64,000 bases of DNA, from the NCBI RefSeq assembly GCF_008360935.1, contig NZ_SRXO01000003.1, forward strand, positions 1 through 64,000, written 5' to 3'. The stretch comes from Siccirubricoccus phaeus. Lineage in GTDB: Bacteria > Pseudomonadota > Alphaproteobacteria > Acetobacterales > Acetobacteraceae. The position numbers and the translations under genes are program-made. Under the pieces are notes generated by a model. That model was not told the origin of the DNA. It worked only from the letters and a program-made list of their open reading frames with translations, and did not search any database. Positions 3,590 through 60,336 of the stretch are shown piece after piece. Position 1 is the first letter of the stretch. Each line of letters begins with the position of its first letter.

Positions 3590-3811
3590 CTAGTGTCCTG
3601 CCCGCGACGTTCGCTGGATTTCCAGCGAACGCAGCGGACAAGCAGGCCACTGAAAGCCAGGCCAGTGGCCCGAGAATGAAGTCCACAGGCCTTCGGAATC
3701 GGGACACTGGAGCGGTTTCCTCGCCTGCGCTCGGCAAACCCGCTCCAGCCCTTCGTTTGGTCGCATTTTCCGAGTCGTCCGGCGATTCCGCCGGAATTGA
3801 GAATGCTCTAG
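3590..3811. repeat. Family 1 palindromic repeat, copy A
   Basis: A 222-bp intergenic element is built of nested hairpins. The outer arms are CTAGTGTCC (3590-3598) and GGACACTGG (3702-3710). Then follow CTGGAGCGG (3707-3715) with CCGCTCCAG (3740-3748), and a stem GCATTTTC...GAGAATGC closing at the final CTAG (to 3811), with GTCCGGCG/CGCCGGAC-type inner pairing. It is related throughout to 36203-36430 and identical over 3762-3795. No open frame in it looks coding. It ends 13 bp before the RDD gene start. Confidence 0.85.
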
Positions 3812-19440: not shown

Positions 19441-20628
<1,188 letters not shown>

Positions 20629-36202: not shown

Positions 36203-36430
36203 CCGGTGTCCTGCCCGCCCCCTTCGCCGGGTTCCCCAGCGAACGGGGCGGGCAGGCAGGCCGCTGAAAAGAAAATAGCTGGTGGCCCGGGAACGAAGTC
36301 CGCAGGACTTCGGAATCGGGACACTAGAGCGGTTTCACCTCGCCTGCGCTCGGCGAAGCCGCTCCAGCCCTTTGTTTGCTCGCATTTTCCGAGTCGTCCG
36401 GCGATTCCGCCGGACTTGAAAATGCTCTAG
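36203..36430. repeat. Family 1 palindromic repeat, copy B
   Basis: A 228-bp relative of 3590-3811 in the 461-bp gap between the FkbM gene and the cyclase gene. Parts are CCGGTGTCC (36203-36211) with GGACACTAG (36319-36327), the hairpin CGAAGTCC-GCA-GGACTTCG (36294-36312) shared with 5471-5489, CTAGAGCGG (36324-36332) with CCGCTCCAG (36359-36367), and GCATTTTC (36382-36389) with GAAAATGC (36418-36425), ending GCTCTAG. Positions 36381-36414 equal 3762-3795. Confidence 0.87.
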
Positions 36431-37641: not shown

Positions 37642-37681
37642 GCCCGTTGTCCCGCCGCGGCTCTGCCGCGGCGGGCTGTGC
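37642..37681 (-). repeat. Family 2 stop-codon-linked palindrome, copy 1
   Basis: Read on the minus strand: GCACAG, stem CCCGCCGCGGC, loop AGA, stem GCCGCGGCGGG, then ACAACGGGC. It lies 46 bp downstream of the OmpA-family stop (37728) in sense orientation, between convergent genes. The intervening bases start TCCCCA as in the other copies. The stem differs from copies 2 and 3 by one compensated base pair. Confidence 0.85.
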
Positions 37682-37727
37682 AAGGTGCCGGTCGTGAGCG
37701 ACTCCAGGCCCGGCGGCGCCGTGGGGA

Positions 37728-38807
37728 TCAGCGCAGGACGATCTCGACGCGGCGGTTCTGCGGCTCGCGCACGCCATCGGCCGTCGGGACCAGCGGGCGG
37801 GTCTCGCCATAGGCGCTGACGGCGATCAGGTCGCGGGCGATCCCCCGCCGCACCAGCTCGGCCGCCACCGCATCGGCGCGGCGCTGCGACAGGCGTTGGT
37901 TGTATTGCGGCGTGCCGGAGCGGTCGGCATGGCCCGCCACCTCGATCCGGGTGGTCTGCACCTGCGGCGCCGCGGCCGCCGCCTCGGCGATGATCTGCCG
38001 GGCGCGATCGGTCAGGTCGGCGCGATCCCAGTCGAAGAAGACCAGGTAGGTCCGGGCGGTGGCGGGCGGGGGCGGCGGCTCCACCACGGCCGGCGCCGGC
38101 CGCGGCGTGTTGAAGACGTAGCGCAGGCCGAACAGCACGCTGTGGTTCTCGGTGGCCAGCTTCACCTTGCCCGGCACGGTGGCCAGGCCCGGCCCGGCGG
38201 TGCGGGTGACGTCGTGGCTGCTGTCCAGCGCGCCGACATAGCGGTACTCGGTGGTGAAGGAGAGGCCCGGGACCATGCCGCCGAGGCCCCAGGAAATGCC
38301 GGCGATCGCCTGGTAGCCGAAGCTGCCGGCAGTGTCCTCGATGCGGTAGGAGGAGGTGCCGCCGCTGAATTTGGCGCTGCTGATCTCGCGCCACAGATAG
38401 CCGACGCCGCCGCCGAGATAGGGCATCATGCCGTTCGGCGCGATGCCGAAGCTCGACAGGTCGAAGTCGAACAGCACATTCGCCATGGCGCCGTATTGCC
38501 GGACATAGCCGCTGCTGCCGCGGAACCCGGCACCGGAGACGGTGTCGATGTCGCTATAGCGGTAATTGCCCTCCAGCTCGGCGCGGAAGCCGTTGCCGAA
38601 GCCGTAGCCGACATTCACCAGCCCGACATAGCCCACATCCTCGTCATGCACCCGGAGGCCGCGGCTGGACTGGTCGTGCCAGAAATTGATGCCGGCCCCG
38701 GCGCCGATATAGGGGCCGCTCACGGTCTGGGCCGCGGCCTGGCCTGGGCCGAGGAGCAAGGGCAGCGCCAGGCAGGTGGTGGCAAGGAGACCAAGGCGAA
38801 GCGACAT
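37728..38807 (-). CDS. OmpA-family outer-membrane protein
   Basis: A 359-residue exported protein. The signal peptide spans about 1-27 (MSLRLGLLATTCLALPLLLG, ending AAAQ). An eight-strand beta-barrel follows (YIGAGAGINFWHD ... VLFGLRYVF at about 28-240), then a Pro-rich linker (VVEPPPPPA) and a C-terminal OmpA peptidoglycan-binding domain with VAGHADRSGTPQYNQRLSQR. The N-terminal half resembles the opacity/OmpW-type barrels of alphaproteobacteria. GGAG precedes the ATG. The 270 bp upstream hold no other gene. Confidence 0.9.
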   Translation of the reverse strand: MSLRLGLLATTCLALPLLLGPGQAAAQTVSGPYIGAGAGINFWHDQSSRGLRVHDEDVGYVGLVNVGYGFGNGFRAELEGNYRYSDIDTVSGAGFRGSSGYVRQYGAMANVLFDFDLSSFGIAPNGMMPYLGGGVGYLWREISSAKFSGGTSSYRIEDTAGSFGYQAIAGISWGLGGMVPGLSFTTEYRYVGALDSSHDVTRTAGPGLATVPGKVKLATENHSVLFGLRYVFNTPRPAPAVVEPPPPPATARTYLVFFDWDRADLTDRARQIIAEAAAAAPQVQTTRIEVAGHADRSGTPQYNQRLSQRRADAVAAELVRRGIARDLIAVSAYGETRPLVPTADGVREPQNRRVEIVLR

Positions 38808-39077
38808 GCGGGATTCTCCGGCGAGCCAAAGGGAATGTCGATCGGGCAACCTTCCGGGGAAGGCTGTTACGCGTGACCTGGGCGTGAAGGCGAGCCTGCG
38901 ACAGCCCCATTCACTCCCCGGAAGAAAGCGCGCCCGGGAAATTCCCGCGAGGCAATGTCTCACTTCAAGCCTTCAAATTGCTGCGAGTCCGGCAGCAACC
39001 GGAACGCTTGCACAAGCGATCCTTCGGCGAAGCCAGGCCGAGGCATGCCGTGCGAAGACGACTCTCCCGTGGCGACC

Positions 39078-42944: not shown

Positions 42945-43190
42945 GACTCATTCCCGATGACGGCGCTGGGCGCCGCCGTGGTGAGTCCGGAATTCGTCCC
43001 GATCGGCGCCTCGCCCGGCCTGGCGCGGCGAAGCGGGGCCAGGGCGCCGGGCAGCGACCGGGAGAATTGCATCCCTATGGCCTTGTGGCAGGGCGGCCCG
43101 GGCGCGTCGGCGGCTCTCCCAGGCAGCTCCTCGCAGGGCCGGGCGCGGCGGTGCCGCGCCAGGGCAACCGGCGGCGTCGGGCGGGCGTGA
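42945..43190. other. flbD-flhA intergenic region
   Basis: This 246-bp stretch lies between flbD and flhA, both on the minus strand. I see no gene and no convincing sigma-70 or sigma-54 promoter or terminator. Confidence 0.4.
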
Positions 43191-49956: not shown

Positions 49957-50079
49957 GGGCGCCGGCACCGCCGGGCGGCGGCACGGCTCCCCCCGCCCCC
50001 TGACCCGCATTTAGCCGGTTGCGCGAAAGCCCGGCCTCGGGGAGGCTGCGCCGGCCCGCTGTTGAGGGGAGGCATTCCA

Positions 50080-50697
50080 ATGAAGCTGTACTACGCGCCC
50101 GGCGCCTGCTCGGTCGGCATCCATGTGCTGCTCGAGGAGATCGGCAAGCCCTATGAGGCGGAGGCGGTGAATCTGCGCGAGGGCGCGCAATTCAAGCCGG
50201 ACTTCACCGCCATCAACCCGAAATCCAAGGTGCCGACCCTGGTGAAGGATGACGGCGCCGTCATCACCGAATTCCCCGCCATCGCCACCTGGCTGGCCAG
50301 CAGCTTCCCGGAGGCGAAGCTGCTGCCGCAGGGCGCCGACAAGCTGGCCAAGGCGCTGGAATACGTGGATTACGCGGTGGCGACGCTGCATATGCAGGGC
50401 TTCTCCCGCATCTTCCGCCCGTCCAATTACGCGCCCAACGAGGCCGACCATGAGGCGGTGAAGGCGAAGGGGGAGGAGATCTTCTCCAAGGGCCTGGCGA
50501 TCTTCGACAAGGCGCTGGAGGGCAAGGACTACCTGCTGGGCGAATTCTCCTTCGCCGATGCGGCGCTGTTCTATGTCTCCTTCTGGTGGAAGGGGCGGCT
50601 GGGCAAGGAGCTGCCGCCGAATGTCGCGGCGCATTACGCCCGCATGCTGGCCCGGCCGGCGGTGCAGCGCACGCTGCAGGCCGAGGGGCTGGCATAG
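50080..50697 (+). CDS. Glutathione S-transferase family protein
   Basis: A 205-residue cytosolic GST. The thioredoxin-like N-terminal domain starts MKLYYAPGACSVGIHVLLEE with a candidate active Ser/Cys at residues 10-11, and the glutathione-binding cis-Pro block is SKVPTLVKDDGAVITEFPAI. The C-terminal helical domain includes [25 protein letters not shown] is seven bases before the ATG at 50080. The substrate is unknown. A perfect hairpin starts three bases after the stop. Confidence 0.9.
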   Translation: MKLYYAPGACSVGIHVLLEEIGKPYEAEAVNLREGAQFKPDFTAINPKSKVPTLVKDDGAVITEFPAIATWLASSFPEAKLLPQGADKLAKALEYVDYAVATLHMQGFSRIFRPSNYAPNEADHEAVKAKGEEIFSKGLAIFDKALEGKDYLLGEFSFADAALFYVSFWWKGRLGKELPPNVAAHYARMLARPAVQRTLQAEGLA

Positions 50698-50700
50698 CTT

Positions 50701-50760
50701 CCCATGACGTTGCTGGCGCAACGTCATGGGGGCCCGGAGGCGCCCGGTGATCGGCGCCTC
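50701..50760 (+). terminator. Paired hairpins after the GST gene (family 2 front part)
   Basis: CCCATGACGTTG (50701-50712) pairs with CAACGTCATGGG (50719-50730). A second stem GAGGCGCC/GGCGCCTC follows before 50760. No T tract is present. This is the front part of the composite element ending at 50800. Confidence 0.7.
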
Positions 50761-50800
50761 GCACAGCCTGCCGCGGCGAAGCCGCGGCAGGACAACGGGC
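50761..50800 (+). repeat. Family 2 stop-codon-linked palindrome, copy 2
   Basis: GCACAG, stem CCTGCCGCGGC, loop GAA, stem GCCGCGGCAGG, ACAACGGGC. It is in sense orientation 63 bp after the GST stop and is preceded by two hairpins that start three bases after that stop. Confidence 0.87.
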
Positions 50801-50881
50801 AGGGGGTGGGCGGCGTGCCGCCCATGGCCCGGCTGCGGGGCCGCCATCCCCGGCCCGCTCACTGACAAGGAAGGCTGATTC

Positions 50882-56474: not shown

Positions 56475-56665
56475 GGGGAGCTCTGGTTGCGGCAGTGCCG
56501 CAACCCCTCAAACTCTCCCTCGCCAAGGGCCGAAGGGCCCTTGGAACCCTTGAGTTTCGCGGTTGGGTCGTCGGGTTTCAAATTCATGGTTTCCAAAGGC
56601 CTTTCGGCCTTTGGCGGGGTGAGCCCGAGAGGGGCAGAGCCCCTCTCGGATGCGGGGCGAAGACA
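56475..56665. repeat. Four-hairpin array upstream of ychF
   Basis: Four perfect hairpins lie in 163 bp: GGTTGCGGC/GCCGCAACC (56485-56505), CCAAGGGCC/GGCCCTTGG (56523-56544), CCAAAGGCC/GGCCTTTGG (56593-56614) and GAGAGGGGC/GCCCCTCTC (56627-56647). No gene is seen between them. The ychF start is 18 bp past the last. Confidence 0.85.
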
Positions 56666-57923: not shown

Positions 57924-59540
57924 ATGATCATCAGAACCTTACGCCGCGTCCTGCTGGGCGCGCTGCTGCTGGCCGCGCCGGCGGGTGCGCTGCTGCCGGC
58001 TGCGCCCGCTTCGGCGGAAACCCTGCGCTGGGCCTATCAGAGCGACGCCCTCTCGCTCGACCCGCATGCGAACAACGAGACGATGACATTGCGCTTCCTG
58101 AGCAATGTCTACGACCCGCTGGTGACGCGCAGCCGCGACCACAGCATCGAACCGGCGCTGGCGGTGAGCTGGACGACGGAGGCGCCGGACCGCTGGCGCT
58201 TCGTGCTGCGCCAGGGCGTGACATTCCAGGGCGGCGAGAGCTTCGACGCCGACGACGTGGTGTTCAGCCTGGCGCGCGCCGCCTCGCCCAGCTCCAACGT
58301 GCAATCCCACACCTCCGGCATCCTGCGCGTCGAGAAGGTGGACAGCCACACCGTCGACATCGTCACCAAGGGCCCGCGCGCCACGCTGCTGAACGAGCTG
58401 GCCAATATCCTGATCCTGGACGAGGGCTGGTCGCGGGCGAACAATGCGGTGGAGGTGGCGAACAACAACCAGGGCCGCACCGGCTTCACCACGCTGAACG
58501 CCAATGGCAGCGGCGCCTATCGCGTGCAGTCCCGCGCGCCGGACCAGCGCACCGTGCTGCTGCGCAATACCGGCTGGTGGGGGAAGAACGAGGGCAATGT
58601 CGATACCGTGGTATTCACCCCGGTGCGCTCCGACCCGACGCGCATGGCGGCGCTGATCTCCGGCGAGCTGGATCTGGTGCATCCGGTGCCGACCCAGGAC
58701 ATCGCCCGGCTGCGCGCGGTGCCGGGCGTGCAGGTGCTGGAGGTGCCGGAGATCCGCACCCTGTATTTCGGCGTCAACCACTCCGGCGAGACGCTGCTGA
58801 ACGGCCAGCCCAACCCGCTGCGCGACCTGCGGGTGCGGGAGGCGATCTATCGCGCCATCGACATCGAGGCGGTGCGCCGCACCGTGATGCGCGGCGCGGC
58901 ACGGCCGACCGGGCTGCTGGTGGGGCCCGGCGTCGAGGGCTACAGCCAGGCTGAGGACCGGCGCCTGCCCTACGACCCGGATGGCGCCCGGCGGCTGCTG
59001 CGGGAGGCGGGCTATCCGGAGGGATTCGCGCTGCAGCTCCGCTGCCCCAACGACCGCTACGTGAATGACGAGGCGATCTGCGTCGCGGTCAGCGCCATGC
59101 TGGCGCGCGTGGGCATCCGTGCCACGCTGCTGTCGCAGACCAAGTCGGTCTATTTCCAGCGCCTGCTGGCCGAGCGGCCGGACATGTACCTGCAGGGCTG
59201 GACGCCCAATTCCTTCGATGCGCTGGAGGCCTTCTTCTACAACCTCGCCACCCGCCAGGACGACAATCCGACGGTGGCGATCGGCGAGGGCCAGGGCACC
59301 TTCAATGCCGGCCGCTACCGCAACCCGGACGTGGACGCGCTGCTGAAGCGCATCGGCCAGAGCATCGACCGCGACGAGCGGCGCAAGCTGATCAATGAGG
59401 TCCATACCATCTTCCGCCGGGACATCGCCTATGTCCCGCTGCACCAGCAGGTCATCGTCTGGGCGGCGCGGCGCGGCGTGACGGCGACGCCGCTGGCGGA
59501 TGACACGGTCAATCTGCGTTGGATCACGGTGACGAAGTAG
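57924..59540 (+). CDS. ABC transporter substrate-binding protein, family 5 (peptide type)
   Basis: A 538-residue periplasmic binding protein. The signal peptide spans about 1-32 (MIIRTLRRVLLGALLLAAP, ending ASA before ETLRWA). The mature part has the SBP_bac_5 pattern LRWAYQSDALSLDPHANNE, SFDADDVVFSLARA and the terminal DIAYVPLHQQVIVWA. Such proteins feed oligopeptide, nickel, glutathione or opine permeases; no permease or ATPase gene lies next to it here, so the ligand is unknown. GGGAG precedes the ATG at 57924. Confidence 0.92.
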   Translation: MIIRTLRRVLLGALLLAAPAGALLPAAPASAETLRWAYQSDALSLDPHANNETMTLRFLSNVYDPLVTRSRDHSIEPALAVSWTTEAPDRWRFVLRQGVTFQGGESFDADDVVFSLARAASPSSNVQSHTSGILRVEKVDSHTVDIVTKGPRATLLNELANILILDEGWSRANNAVEVANNNQGRTGFTTLNANGSGAYRVQSRAPDQRTVLLRNTGWWGKNEGNVDTVVFTPVRSDPTRMAALISGELDLVHPVPTQDIARLRAVPGVQVLEVPEIRTLYFGVNHSGETLLNGQPNPLRDLRVREAIYRAIDIEAVRRTVMRGAARPTGLLVGPGVEGYSQAEDRRLPYDPDGARRLLREAGYPEGFALQLRCPNDRYVNDEAICVAVSAMLARVGIRATLLSQTKSVYFQRLLAERPDMYLQGWTPNSFDALEAFFYNLATRQDDNPTVAIGEGQGTFNAGRYRNPDVDALLKRIGQSIDRDERRKLINEVHTIFRRDIAYVPLHQQVIVWAARRGVTATPLADDTVNLRWITVTK

Positions 59541-59554
59541 GGGAGGAGGAGGCG

Positions 59555-60232
59555 ATGCTGGTCATCGACGGACACGAAGTCTTCACCGAGATGCATGAGC
59601 TGGTGGATCCGGCGCATACCGCGGTGGTGGTGATCGATCCACAGAATGATTTCTGCTCGGAGGGCGGGGTCTTCGCCCGCGGGGGCAAGGACATGTCCGC
59701 CTTCCCCGCCGCCATCGCCGCGGCGGCGAAGCTGGTGGACCGCGCCCGGGCGGCGGGGTGCAAGGTGATCTTCATCCAGAACCAGAAGCTGCCGGATGGG
59801 AAATCCACCTCCCCCGGCTGGCTGCGCTTCATGGCGCTGCACAACAAGCTGGACCCGAACGACGCAGAAATGTGCCTGGTGGGAAGCTGGGGCGCGGAAT
59901 TCGTGCCCGGGCTGCAGCCGGAGCCTCCCGACATCATCGTGCAGAAGTGGCGCAGCAGCGCCTTTGTCGGCACCAACCTGGACATGATCCTGCGCGTCCA
60001 CCGCATCCGTACCGTGGTATGCTGCGGCTTCGTGACCCAAGGCTGCGTCGAGAGCACCGCGCGCGATGCCGGCTTCTACGACTACTACCCGGTGGTGGTG
60101 GAGGATGCGATCGCCACCCATGACCAGAAGCTGCACGAGGCATCATTGACCGTGCAGCGCACCCGCTACGATGTGGTGCCGAGCGAAGTGGTGTTGGCCG
60201 AGTGGGAGAAGAAGACGCCGCAACTGGCCTAG
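59555..60232 (+). CDS. Isochorismatase-family cysteine hydrolase
   Basis: A 225-residue cytosolic amidase-type hydrolase. The catalytic Asp is in VVVIDPQNDF, Lys in VQKWRSSAF, and Cys in GFVTQGCVESTARDA preceded by the expected cis-peptide region. Relatives include N-carbamoylsarcosine amidase, biuret hydrolase and nicotinamidase; the substrate is not assigned. A strong GGGAGGAGGAGG precedes the ATG. It lies 14 bp after the binding-protein gene and is probably co-transcribed, suggesting uptake followed by amide hydrolysis. Confidence 0.9.
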   Translation: MLVIDGHEVFTEMHELVDPAHTAVVVIDPQNDFCSEGGVFARGGKDMSAFPAAIAAAAKLVDRARAAGCKVIFIQNQKLPDGKSTSPGWLRFMALHNKLDPNDAEMCLVGSWGAEFVPGLQPEPPDIIVQKWRSSAFVGTNLDMILRVHRIRTVVCCGFVTQGCVESTARDAGFYDYYPVVVEDAIATHDQKLHEASLTVQRTRYDVVPSEVVLAEWEKKTPQLA

Positions 60233-60296
60233 CTCCCCACGAAGTCGCTGCGCGCCTTCGCGGGGGCCCCGAGGCGGCTCTCAGGGCTGCCATCCG

Positions 60297-60336
60297 GCAC
60301 AGCCTGCCGCGGCAAAGCCGCGGCAGGTCAACGGGC
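60297..60336 (+). repeat. Family 2 stop-codon-linked palindrome, copy 3
   Basis: GCACAG, stem CCTGCCGCGGC, loop AAA, stem GCCGCGGCAGG, TCAACGGGC. It lies in sense orientation 64 bp after the isochorismatase stop, between convergent genes. An imperfect stem CCCCACGAAG/CTTCGCGGGG occupies the interval just after the stop. Confidence 0.87.

Follow-up and report, generated by a model that had tools for sequence, protein, structure and literature searches.

High-GC bacteria often lack terminators with a U-tract, which raises the question of how their mRNAs end. A Term-seq study of Methylosinus sporium, an alphaproteobacterium, reports 602 of 772 structured 3′ ends without a U-tract (PMC12403871), and another study proposes clusters of hairpins near stop codons as terminators (PMC8355165). 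As these papers describe them, I-shaped and hairpin-cluster terminators are stable U-less hairpins near stops in high-GC genomes, and they are defined by structure and RNA ends. REP and BIME elements of E. coli and other bacteria are short, GC-rich extragenic palindromes, often composite, that occur in hundreds of copies and frequently lie near stop codons. In the alphaproteobacterium Bradyrhizobium, Br-REP1 and Br-REP2 are multi-palindrome repeats of 3′-UTRs that turn over fast between relatives, of which Br-REP1 occupies about 200 sites; the passages on them give an example between convergent genes and describe no stop-spacing rule (PMC5082802). Two further sources state that CGTC repeats are missing in Acetobacteraceae (PMC3733652) and that many REPs are predicted in Lichenicola cladoniae (PMC12306157), which belongs to the same order as the host studied here.

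A 64,000-nt stretch of the genome of the soil bacterium Siccirubricoccus phaeus (contig NZ_SRXO01000003.1, positions 1–64,000; the window) contains three copies of a 40-nt repeat that are parts of a larger unit of ~105 nt. This cassette consists of a hairpin A, a spacer of ~25 nt, and a hairpin C. It resembles REP/BIME elements in being a multi-copy extragenic palindrome but differs in that it is nearly always in sense to the upstream gene, with a fixed A-spacer-C order anchored at the stop codon. The REP tag GTAG/CGTC is absent, by inspection of 76 copies, from the consensus ends TCCCCAYGA and RCAACGGGC; integron attC core sites read GTTRRRY and RYYYAAC. The Y1_Tnp (RAYT) domain PF01797 was found in none of four genomes searched (the host G000, G001, G002, and G026; control positive in 5 of 14), ruling out a Y1_Tnp-linked REP. 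The Br-REP sequences are unrelated to the cassette by eye. The cassette places stable U-less hairpins close past the stop, as I-shaped and hairpin-cluster terminators do; unlike these, it is a single homologous sequence family whose unpaired flanks are conserved. The comparison with Rfam 15 proposed in the original prediction gave no match to the element: at gathering score, the window returned only 3 tRNAs, and among seven element loci searched at E ≤ 5, the sole match below E 1 (L012:2568–2649) lies far from the element, which rules out a known Rfam family. Literature searches, with most subscription journals outside their coverage, found no earlier description of the cassette family among the titles and abstract openings listed.

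The original prediction described each 40-nt copy as GCACAG, an 11-bp perfect stem, and CAACGGGC, with loops AGA, GAA, and AAA and with C-G as the third stem pair of copy 1 but T-A in the other two. These details, the coordinates, and the strands all hold, as does the post-stop placement, with GCACAG lying 46, 63, and 64 nt past the stops TGA, TAG, and TAG, respectively. A segment beginning (T/C)CCCA, noted near each stop as a conserved start, is indeed present but is more than that: it is the left arm of hairpin A, which had been overlooked and which covaries separately from hairpin C. The features of the window are listed below, with E-values from a hairpin C model (R1), in which the hairpin C cores of all three elements are included, and a hairpin A model (R2).

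37642–37681, minus strand: hairpin C core of element 1 (R1 match, E 9e-10)
37682–37727, minus strand: degenerate hairpin A (TCCCCACGGCG...) and spacer of element 1
37728–37730, minus strand: stop codon TGA of ORF 37728–38963, upstream of element 1
43001–43064, plus strand: degenerate C copy, an exception not in sense to its neighbours (upstream −, downstream −; R1 match, E 0.0034)
43121–43184, plus strand: degenerate C copy, an exception not in sense to its neighbours (upstream −, downstream −; R1 match, E 0.00099)
50695–50697, plus strand: stop codon TAG of the gene of element 2 (ORF 50062–50697), anchor of element 2
50701–50730, plus strand: hairpin A of element 2, CCCATGACGTTGC-TGGC-GCAACGTCATGGG (R2 match 50699–50739, E 1.3e-7)
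50737–50760, plus strand: A-to-C spacer of element 2, with perfect GAGGCGCC...GGCGCCTC arms when this copy is viewed alone
50761–50800, plus strand: hairpin C core of element 2, the reported 40-nt repeat (R1 match 50749–50812, E 7e-12)
60230–60232, plus strand: stop codon TAG of ORF 59519–60232, upstream of element 3
60235–60265, plus strand: hairpin A of element 3 (R2 match 60234–60273, E 1.2e-9; this copy is in the R2 model)
60297–60336, plus strand: hairpin C core of element 3 (R1 match, E 4.1e-11)

The hairpin A of element 1 gave no R2 match up to E 0.1; the gene ahead of it encodes what we take, by eye, to be an OmpA-like protein. The pattern GCACAG-N22-34-CAACGGGC occurs 3 times in the window versus 0.02 expected from shuffles. 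In the whole genome (6.55 Mb), GCACAG-N20-40-CAACGGGC gave 44 matches versus 0 for a reversed control, although at least two of the 44 (C15:60781 and C52:248618) are stemless by eye. Together, the shuffle comparison and the reversed control rule out a chance inverted repeat.

The family is large, which the original prediction had named as a sign in its favour: a genome-wide covariance-model search returned at least 150 matches, 150 being the number of candidates scored. In a 1.24-Mb host sample (contigs C1 and C12 and the first 164 kb of C23), 53 covariance-model copies were retained from 63 C-model matches, after 9 opposite-strand partial palindrome matches and one full match at E 0.49 had been dropped. 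The sample covers 19% of the genome, so the resulting figure of ~280 copies per host genome is an extrapolation. Aligning 76 single-A copies from the host and Siccirubricoccus soli yielded a consensus in which hairpin A (14 bp, with an apical GCTGCGC) is followed by GCCCC, the ~25-nt spacer, GCACAG, hairpin C, and RCAACGGGC. Specifically, hairpin A reads TCCCCAYGA-stem-GCTGCGC-stem-TCRYGGGGGCCCC and starts 0–6 nt past the stop in most copies; hairpin C reads GCACAG-11 bp-loop-RCAACGGGC, with a loop that is mostly AAA or GAA (RAA). RNAalifold omitted the outer part of A, and the 14-bp helix is counted with a manually defined structure. A third hairpin in the spacer was considered and rejected: its covariation score was reached by 107 of 500 shuffles, so the pairing of the GAGGCGCC...GGCGCCTC arms seen in element 2 is unsupported across the 76 copies, and the region is treated as a spacer.

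The two hairpins usually occur together. Of 52 A-model matches in the 1.24-Mb sample at E ≤ 0.01, 48 have a same-strand C within 200 nt downstream; among the remaining 4, the one at C1:217685 is clearly an A that lacks C, and two are opposite-strand readings of a counted A. Conversely, an A match precedes 42 of the 53 C matches. Longer elements carry extra A-type modules of ~42–44 nt each ahead of C, with four A-type units discernible by eye at C1:350726.

Nearly all copies lie just 3′ of genes in the sense orientation (48 of 53 covariance-model copies), with genes called by a codon-usage caller built for this analysis rather than a standard program. The sense copies precede a co-oriented gene in 29 cases and a convergent gene in 19; of the 5 exceptions, 4 follow an antisense neighbour and 1 is a weak match inside a gene. 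The covariance-model copies are thus neither scattered at random positions nor divided between both orientations, and they match no known REP, any of which would have spoken against the original prediction. Uniform intergenic placement would put 47% of copies in sense, but only 2.6% both in sense and no more than 10 nt from a stop. A motif search gave the same picture, with 64 of 67 host copies in sense after a gene and 3 antisense (two overlapping loci, L015 and L016, are counted twice in this set) and 56 of 61 in sense in S. soli, where the other 5 lie at contig edges. A rougher BLAST count covering both strands put 60 of 72 long matches in sense and 12 in antisense.

The cassette is anchored at the stop codon. 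The A start motif lies 0–6 nt past the stop in 111 of 117 junctions, a count that leaves out 3 of 120 sense copies beyond 220 nt. The distance from stop to GCACAG falls at 55–77 nt in 26 of 48 copies, at 98–114 nt in 10, and elsewhere in 12; for the 36 anchored copies, these hairpin C distance classes stand as a proxy for the A start. Where an element is present, tandem gaps are still wide once 105 nt has been subtracted (median ~116 nt versus 43 nt without an element), and convergent gaps are not shorter without an element (medians 173 and 166 nt). Genes next to an element end in TAG more often (18 of 39) than genes overall (229 of 1041; p = 6e-4). In some orthologous pairs, the gene with the element has a TAG stop and its element-free counterpart a TGA stop. 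At three host loci (L014, L020, and L028), the predicted stop lies inside the A hairpin or an A-like piece (CCCCATGA or CCCCATAA), so that the element would itself supply the stop codon.

Both hairpins preserve pairing while their sequences change. Across 32 tested pairs, 86.5% of cells pair, versus 38–50% in slid controls, and 173 cells are double-changed versus 60.5 in shuffles, bearing out the expectation of significant covariation. Double changes affect 8 of 14 pairs in helix A and 7 of 11 in helix C. The original prediction took kept pairing as a sign of a conserved 3′-UTR RNA structure; the pairing is real, but compensatory change alone does not prove an RNA structure. Covariation by itself can mislead, as these palindromes covary strongly yet lack the preference for G.U that an RNA helix should show, and arm-templated repair of imperfect palindromes could yield such double changes. 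On the sense strand, non-Watson-Crick pairs pooled over A and C, leaving aside columns 13–36 and 16–33, comprise 28 G.U and 36 A.C. Hairpin C contributes 12 G.U and 9 A.C, and hairpin A 16 and 27, or 18 and 96 when the two columns, in which A opposite C or T is the rule, are included. As a control, 12 tRNAs of the same DNA, with pairs chosen by ARAGORN, gave 13 G.U and 0 A.C. Because A opposite C is mismatched in sense but becomes G.U in antisense, the antisense strand gives the more stable hairpin A in 62 of 76 copies when RNA parameters are used and in 66 of 76 with DNA parameters; hairpin C shows no strand preference in folding stability. The inverted repeat is therefore maintained, and selection on a sense RNA helix is not established by these data; since G.U does not exceed A.C, maintenance of the palindrome at the DNA level is a serious rival.

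Comparison with S. soli (G001) shows that copies persist at their sites. Among 64 reciprocal-best gene pairs, classified by threshold in the fetched parts of both genomes, the element is missing from both members in 47 and present in both in 9; S. soli alone has it in 5, and the host alone in 3. By eye, the host-only pair L020 has the element in both species, and the S. soli-only pair L028 retains A and C remnants in the host. Over 10 orthologous element pairs, the final 60 coding bases are 0.90 identical, A 0.78, the spacer 0.69, C 0.92, and the downstream flank 0.71, versus 0.61, 0.68, 0.60, 0.86, and 0.63 for non-orthologous pairs. Orthologous copies are thus kept while their flanks drift, so that the cassette, and C in particular, is constrained or homogenised. 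A stems often differ by whole pairs between orthologous copies. Turnover is also seen in the window: S. soli carries element 2, which G002 and G026 lack, and no copy of element 3 was seen at the S. soli orthologue of its gene, which ends in TGA rather than TAG.

The cassette extends beyond the host in a patchy manner. NCBI places Siccirubricoccus and Roseicella in the Roseomonadaceae, Acetobacterales; under GTDB, their family would be the Acetobacteraceae. When named genomes were scanned for the pattern, 16 loci came up: 13 in S. soli KC 17139, 2 in Roseicella frigidaeris, and 1 in Roseicella sp. DB1501, in a collection from which the window's own records may be missing. By the coordinates of their hits, G026 corresponds to Roseicella sp. 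DB1501 and G137 to R. frigidaeris DB1506. The C model matched in 4 of 60 relatives, none of these 4 being among the 24 genomes of other families, and in 7 of 200 genomes of the host's family, searches over 40 genomes having stricter filters. A 31-nt A pattern was found in 9 of 120 family genomes and 6 of 102 genera, and a stricter 36-nt pattern in 25 of 299 genomes and 7 of 65 genera, all listed genomes of the latter sample being from the host's family; reversed controls gave 0 in both cases. Within this one family, A-pattern matches per genome vary from 1 to >100. Of 32 loci fetched from G002, G026, G070, G120, G017, G131, and G062, 30 have a readable A pattern, which starts in sense 0–10 nt past the stop in 26. 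Before C, the host and S. soli have GCACAG, Roseicella often has TCACAG, and G002, another Siccirubricoccus, often has GGCACG; a GC stem with an AAA/GAA-type loop usually follows in other genomes, by eye. A search of 72,556 plasmid records in distant mode found no match to element 2 at E 1e-3, and a plasmid-borne element was set aside.

Within the limits of our scan (stem ≥7 bp, loop 3–9, 5 T in 8 nt), the host has almost no U-tract terminators. Of the element-free gene ends with gaps of at least 90 nt, 0 of 217 convergent and 5 of 285 tandem ones have a hairpin followed by a U-tract; at least two of the gene ends examined look like canonical terminators by eye. Nor does the cassette have the L-shaped intrinsic design of hairpin then U-tract, which is seen at 0 of 40 element gene ends with gaps ≥90 nt (16 convergent, 24 tandem). 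Hairpins of at least 9 bp are present at 123 of 217 convergent and 105 of 285 tandem element-free ends, with 13 and 20 in gene-interior controls. Among gene ends with a hairpin of at least 10 bp, it starts 0–9 nt past the stop in 57 of 164 element-free ends and 24 of 31 element ends.

A role at transcript 3′ ends is indicated by the position, orientation, and constraint of the cassettes, together with the scarcity of U-tract terminators. With modest confidence, we favour a dispersed family of stop-codon-anchored, U-less hairpin-cluster 3′-end cassettes that serve as a terminator and/or 3′-exonuclease barrier. In the mRNA, one or more A hairpins directly past the stop, the near-fixed-length spacer, and C would fold into a cluster of very stable U-less hairpins. 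This cluster most likely ends transcripts as an I-shaped or hairpin-cluster terminator; alternatively, it may mark where Rho-terminated transcripts are trimmed. It would also shield the upstream coding sequence from 3′–5′ exonucleases. Because A lies within a few nucleotides of the stop, a terminating ribosome would hold it partly open, and A would fold completely only upon ribosome release. The sequences directly show anatomy, copy number in a sample, position, orientation, covariation, presence at orthologous loci, and distribution; transcript ending or protection and the ribosome coupling are inferred. Several observations do not sit easily with this reading. Selection on sense RNA should favour G.U over A.C, as it does in tRNAs; 5 of 53 copies are off-sense; convergent gaps are no shorter without an element; and a pure terminator role does not explain the TAG enrichment. 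The suggestion of a terminator or exonuclease block in the original prediction thus has context and covariation behind it, but not the G.U excess of RNA-level selection.

A new type of REP/BIME-like miniature mobile element with no needed function is a possible but rather unlikely explanation. Its palindromes would be kept through mobilisation of folded single-stranded DNA or arm-templated repair, and its insertion after stops would be targeted or merely least harmful. Such an element would account for presence/absence turnover at orthologous genes, including elements 2 and 3, for the uneven numbers of A-pattern matches across one family, for the similar frequencies of G.U and A.C in hairpin C, for the better folding of A on the bottom strand with DNA parameters, and for the enriched TAG stops. 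Exchanges of an entire pair, for example CG to AU (45 and 23 at one pair), cannot pass via G.U and also fit. Near-perfect sense orientation and fixed stop spacing are harder to reconcile with it, as are the same arrangement in other genera, the much higher conservation of C than of the flank at orthologous sites, and the lack of Y1_Tnp in the four genomes. A less probable scheme has exchangeable mobile tail cassettes, in which unrelated hairpin families compete for the post-stop slot and are placed in sense, supplying part of the stop (TGA to TAG). The position of the A start motif, 0–6 nt past the stop in nearly all junctions, fits translational control, with hairpin A stalling the ribosome at or near termination and lowering output or triggering trans-translation; ribosome stalling and lower translation have been reported for E. 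coli REPs that lie up to 15 nt from a stop (as cited in PMC12306157 and PMC5082802). This leaves unexplained both the better conservation of hairpin C and the avoidance of short operonic gaps, and we regard it as distinctly improbable. Slightly less probable again is a site acting at the DNA level, such as one for gyrase or a nucleoid protein, for which palindromes able to form cruciforms would be required between transcription units: roughly equal tolerance of G.U and A.C in hairpin C suits a strand-neutral DNA hairpin, for which gene-sense orientation and stop anchoring are unexpected. Hundreds of homologous copies, natural presence/absence at orthologous genes, and natural variants in module number provide a comparison set for the function of post-stop hairpins.

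Other repeats share the post-stop position. Of 610 post-stop windows, 338 have at least 35 nt in common with another, and the four largest clusters have 92, 68, 44, and 40 members, the 44-member cluster being the cassette family. The common stretch starts no more than 10 nt past the stop in 60 of 92, 55 of 68, and 40 of 44 members of the three largest. These repeated clusters make the A-C cassette one member of a wider set of hairpin cassettes. In the 1.24-Mb sample, the 92-member hairpin family reads GGGGGCTTCGCCCCC ... CAGGGGGCGCTGCCCCCTG ... CCGCCGGGG, and the 68-member hairpin family reads GGGGCTCTGCCCC ... CCAAAGGCCGAAGGGCCTTTGGAAACC. The two larger families are less strictly sense than the cassette: both-strand BLAST gave 62 sense, 25 antisense, and 2 inside genes out of 89 for the former, and 28 sense, 18 antisense, and 1 at an edge out of 47 for the latter.

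The window contains additional repeats. A 147-bp dispersed repeat at 56504–56650 has 23 copies in the 1.24-Mb sample, 18 of which follow a sense gene at 13–61 nt, and dozens of matches on both strands in S. soli. A palindromic repeat family with CACTAGAGCGG ... GCTCTAG ends, at 3665–3811 and 36282–36430, lies at variable distances from genes. Finally, a 300-nt stretch is present with 100% identity at 2314–2613 and 19441–19740, 17 kb apart, with identical pieces up to 2755/19882; the duplicate stretch presumably belongs to duplicate elongation factor genes.
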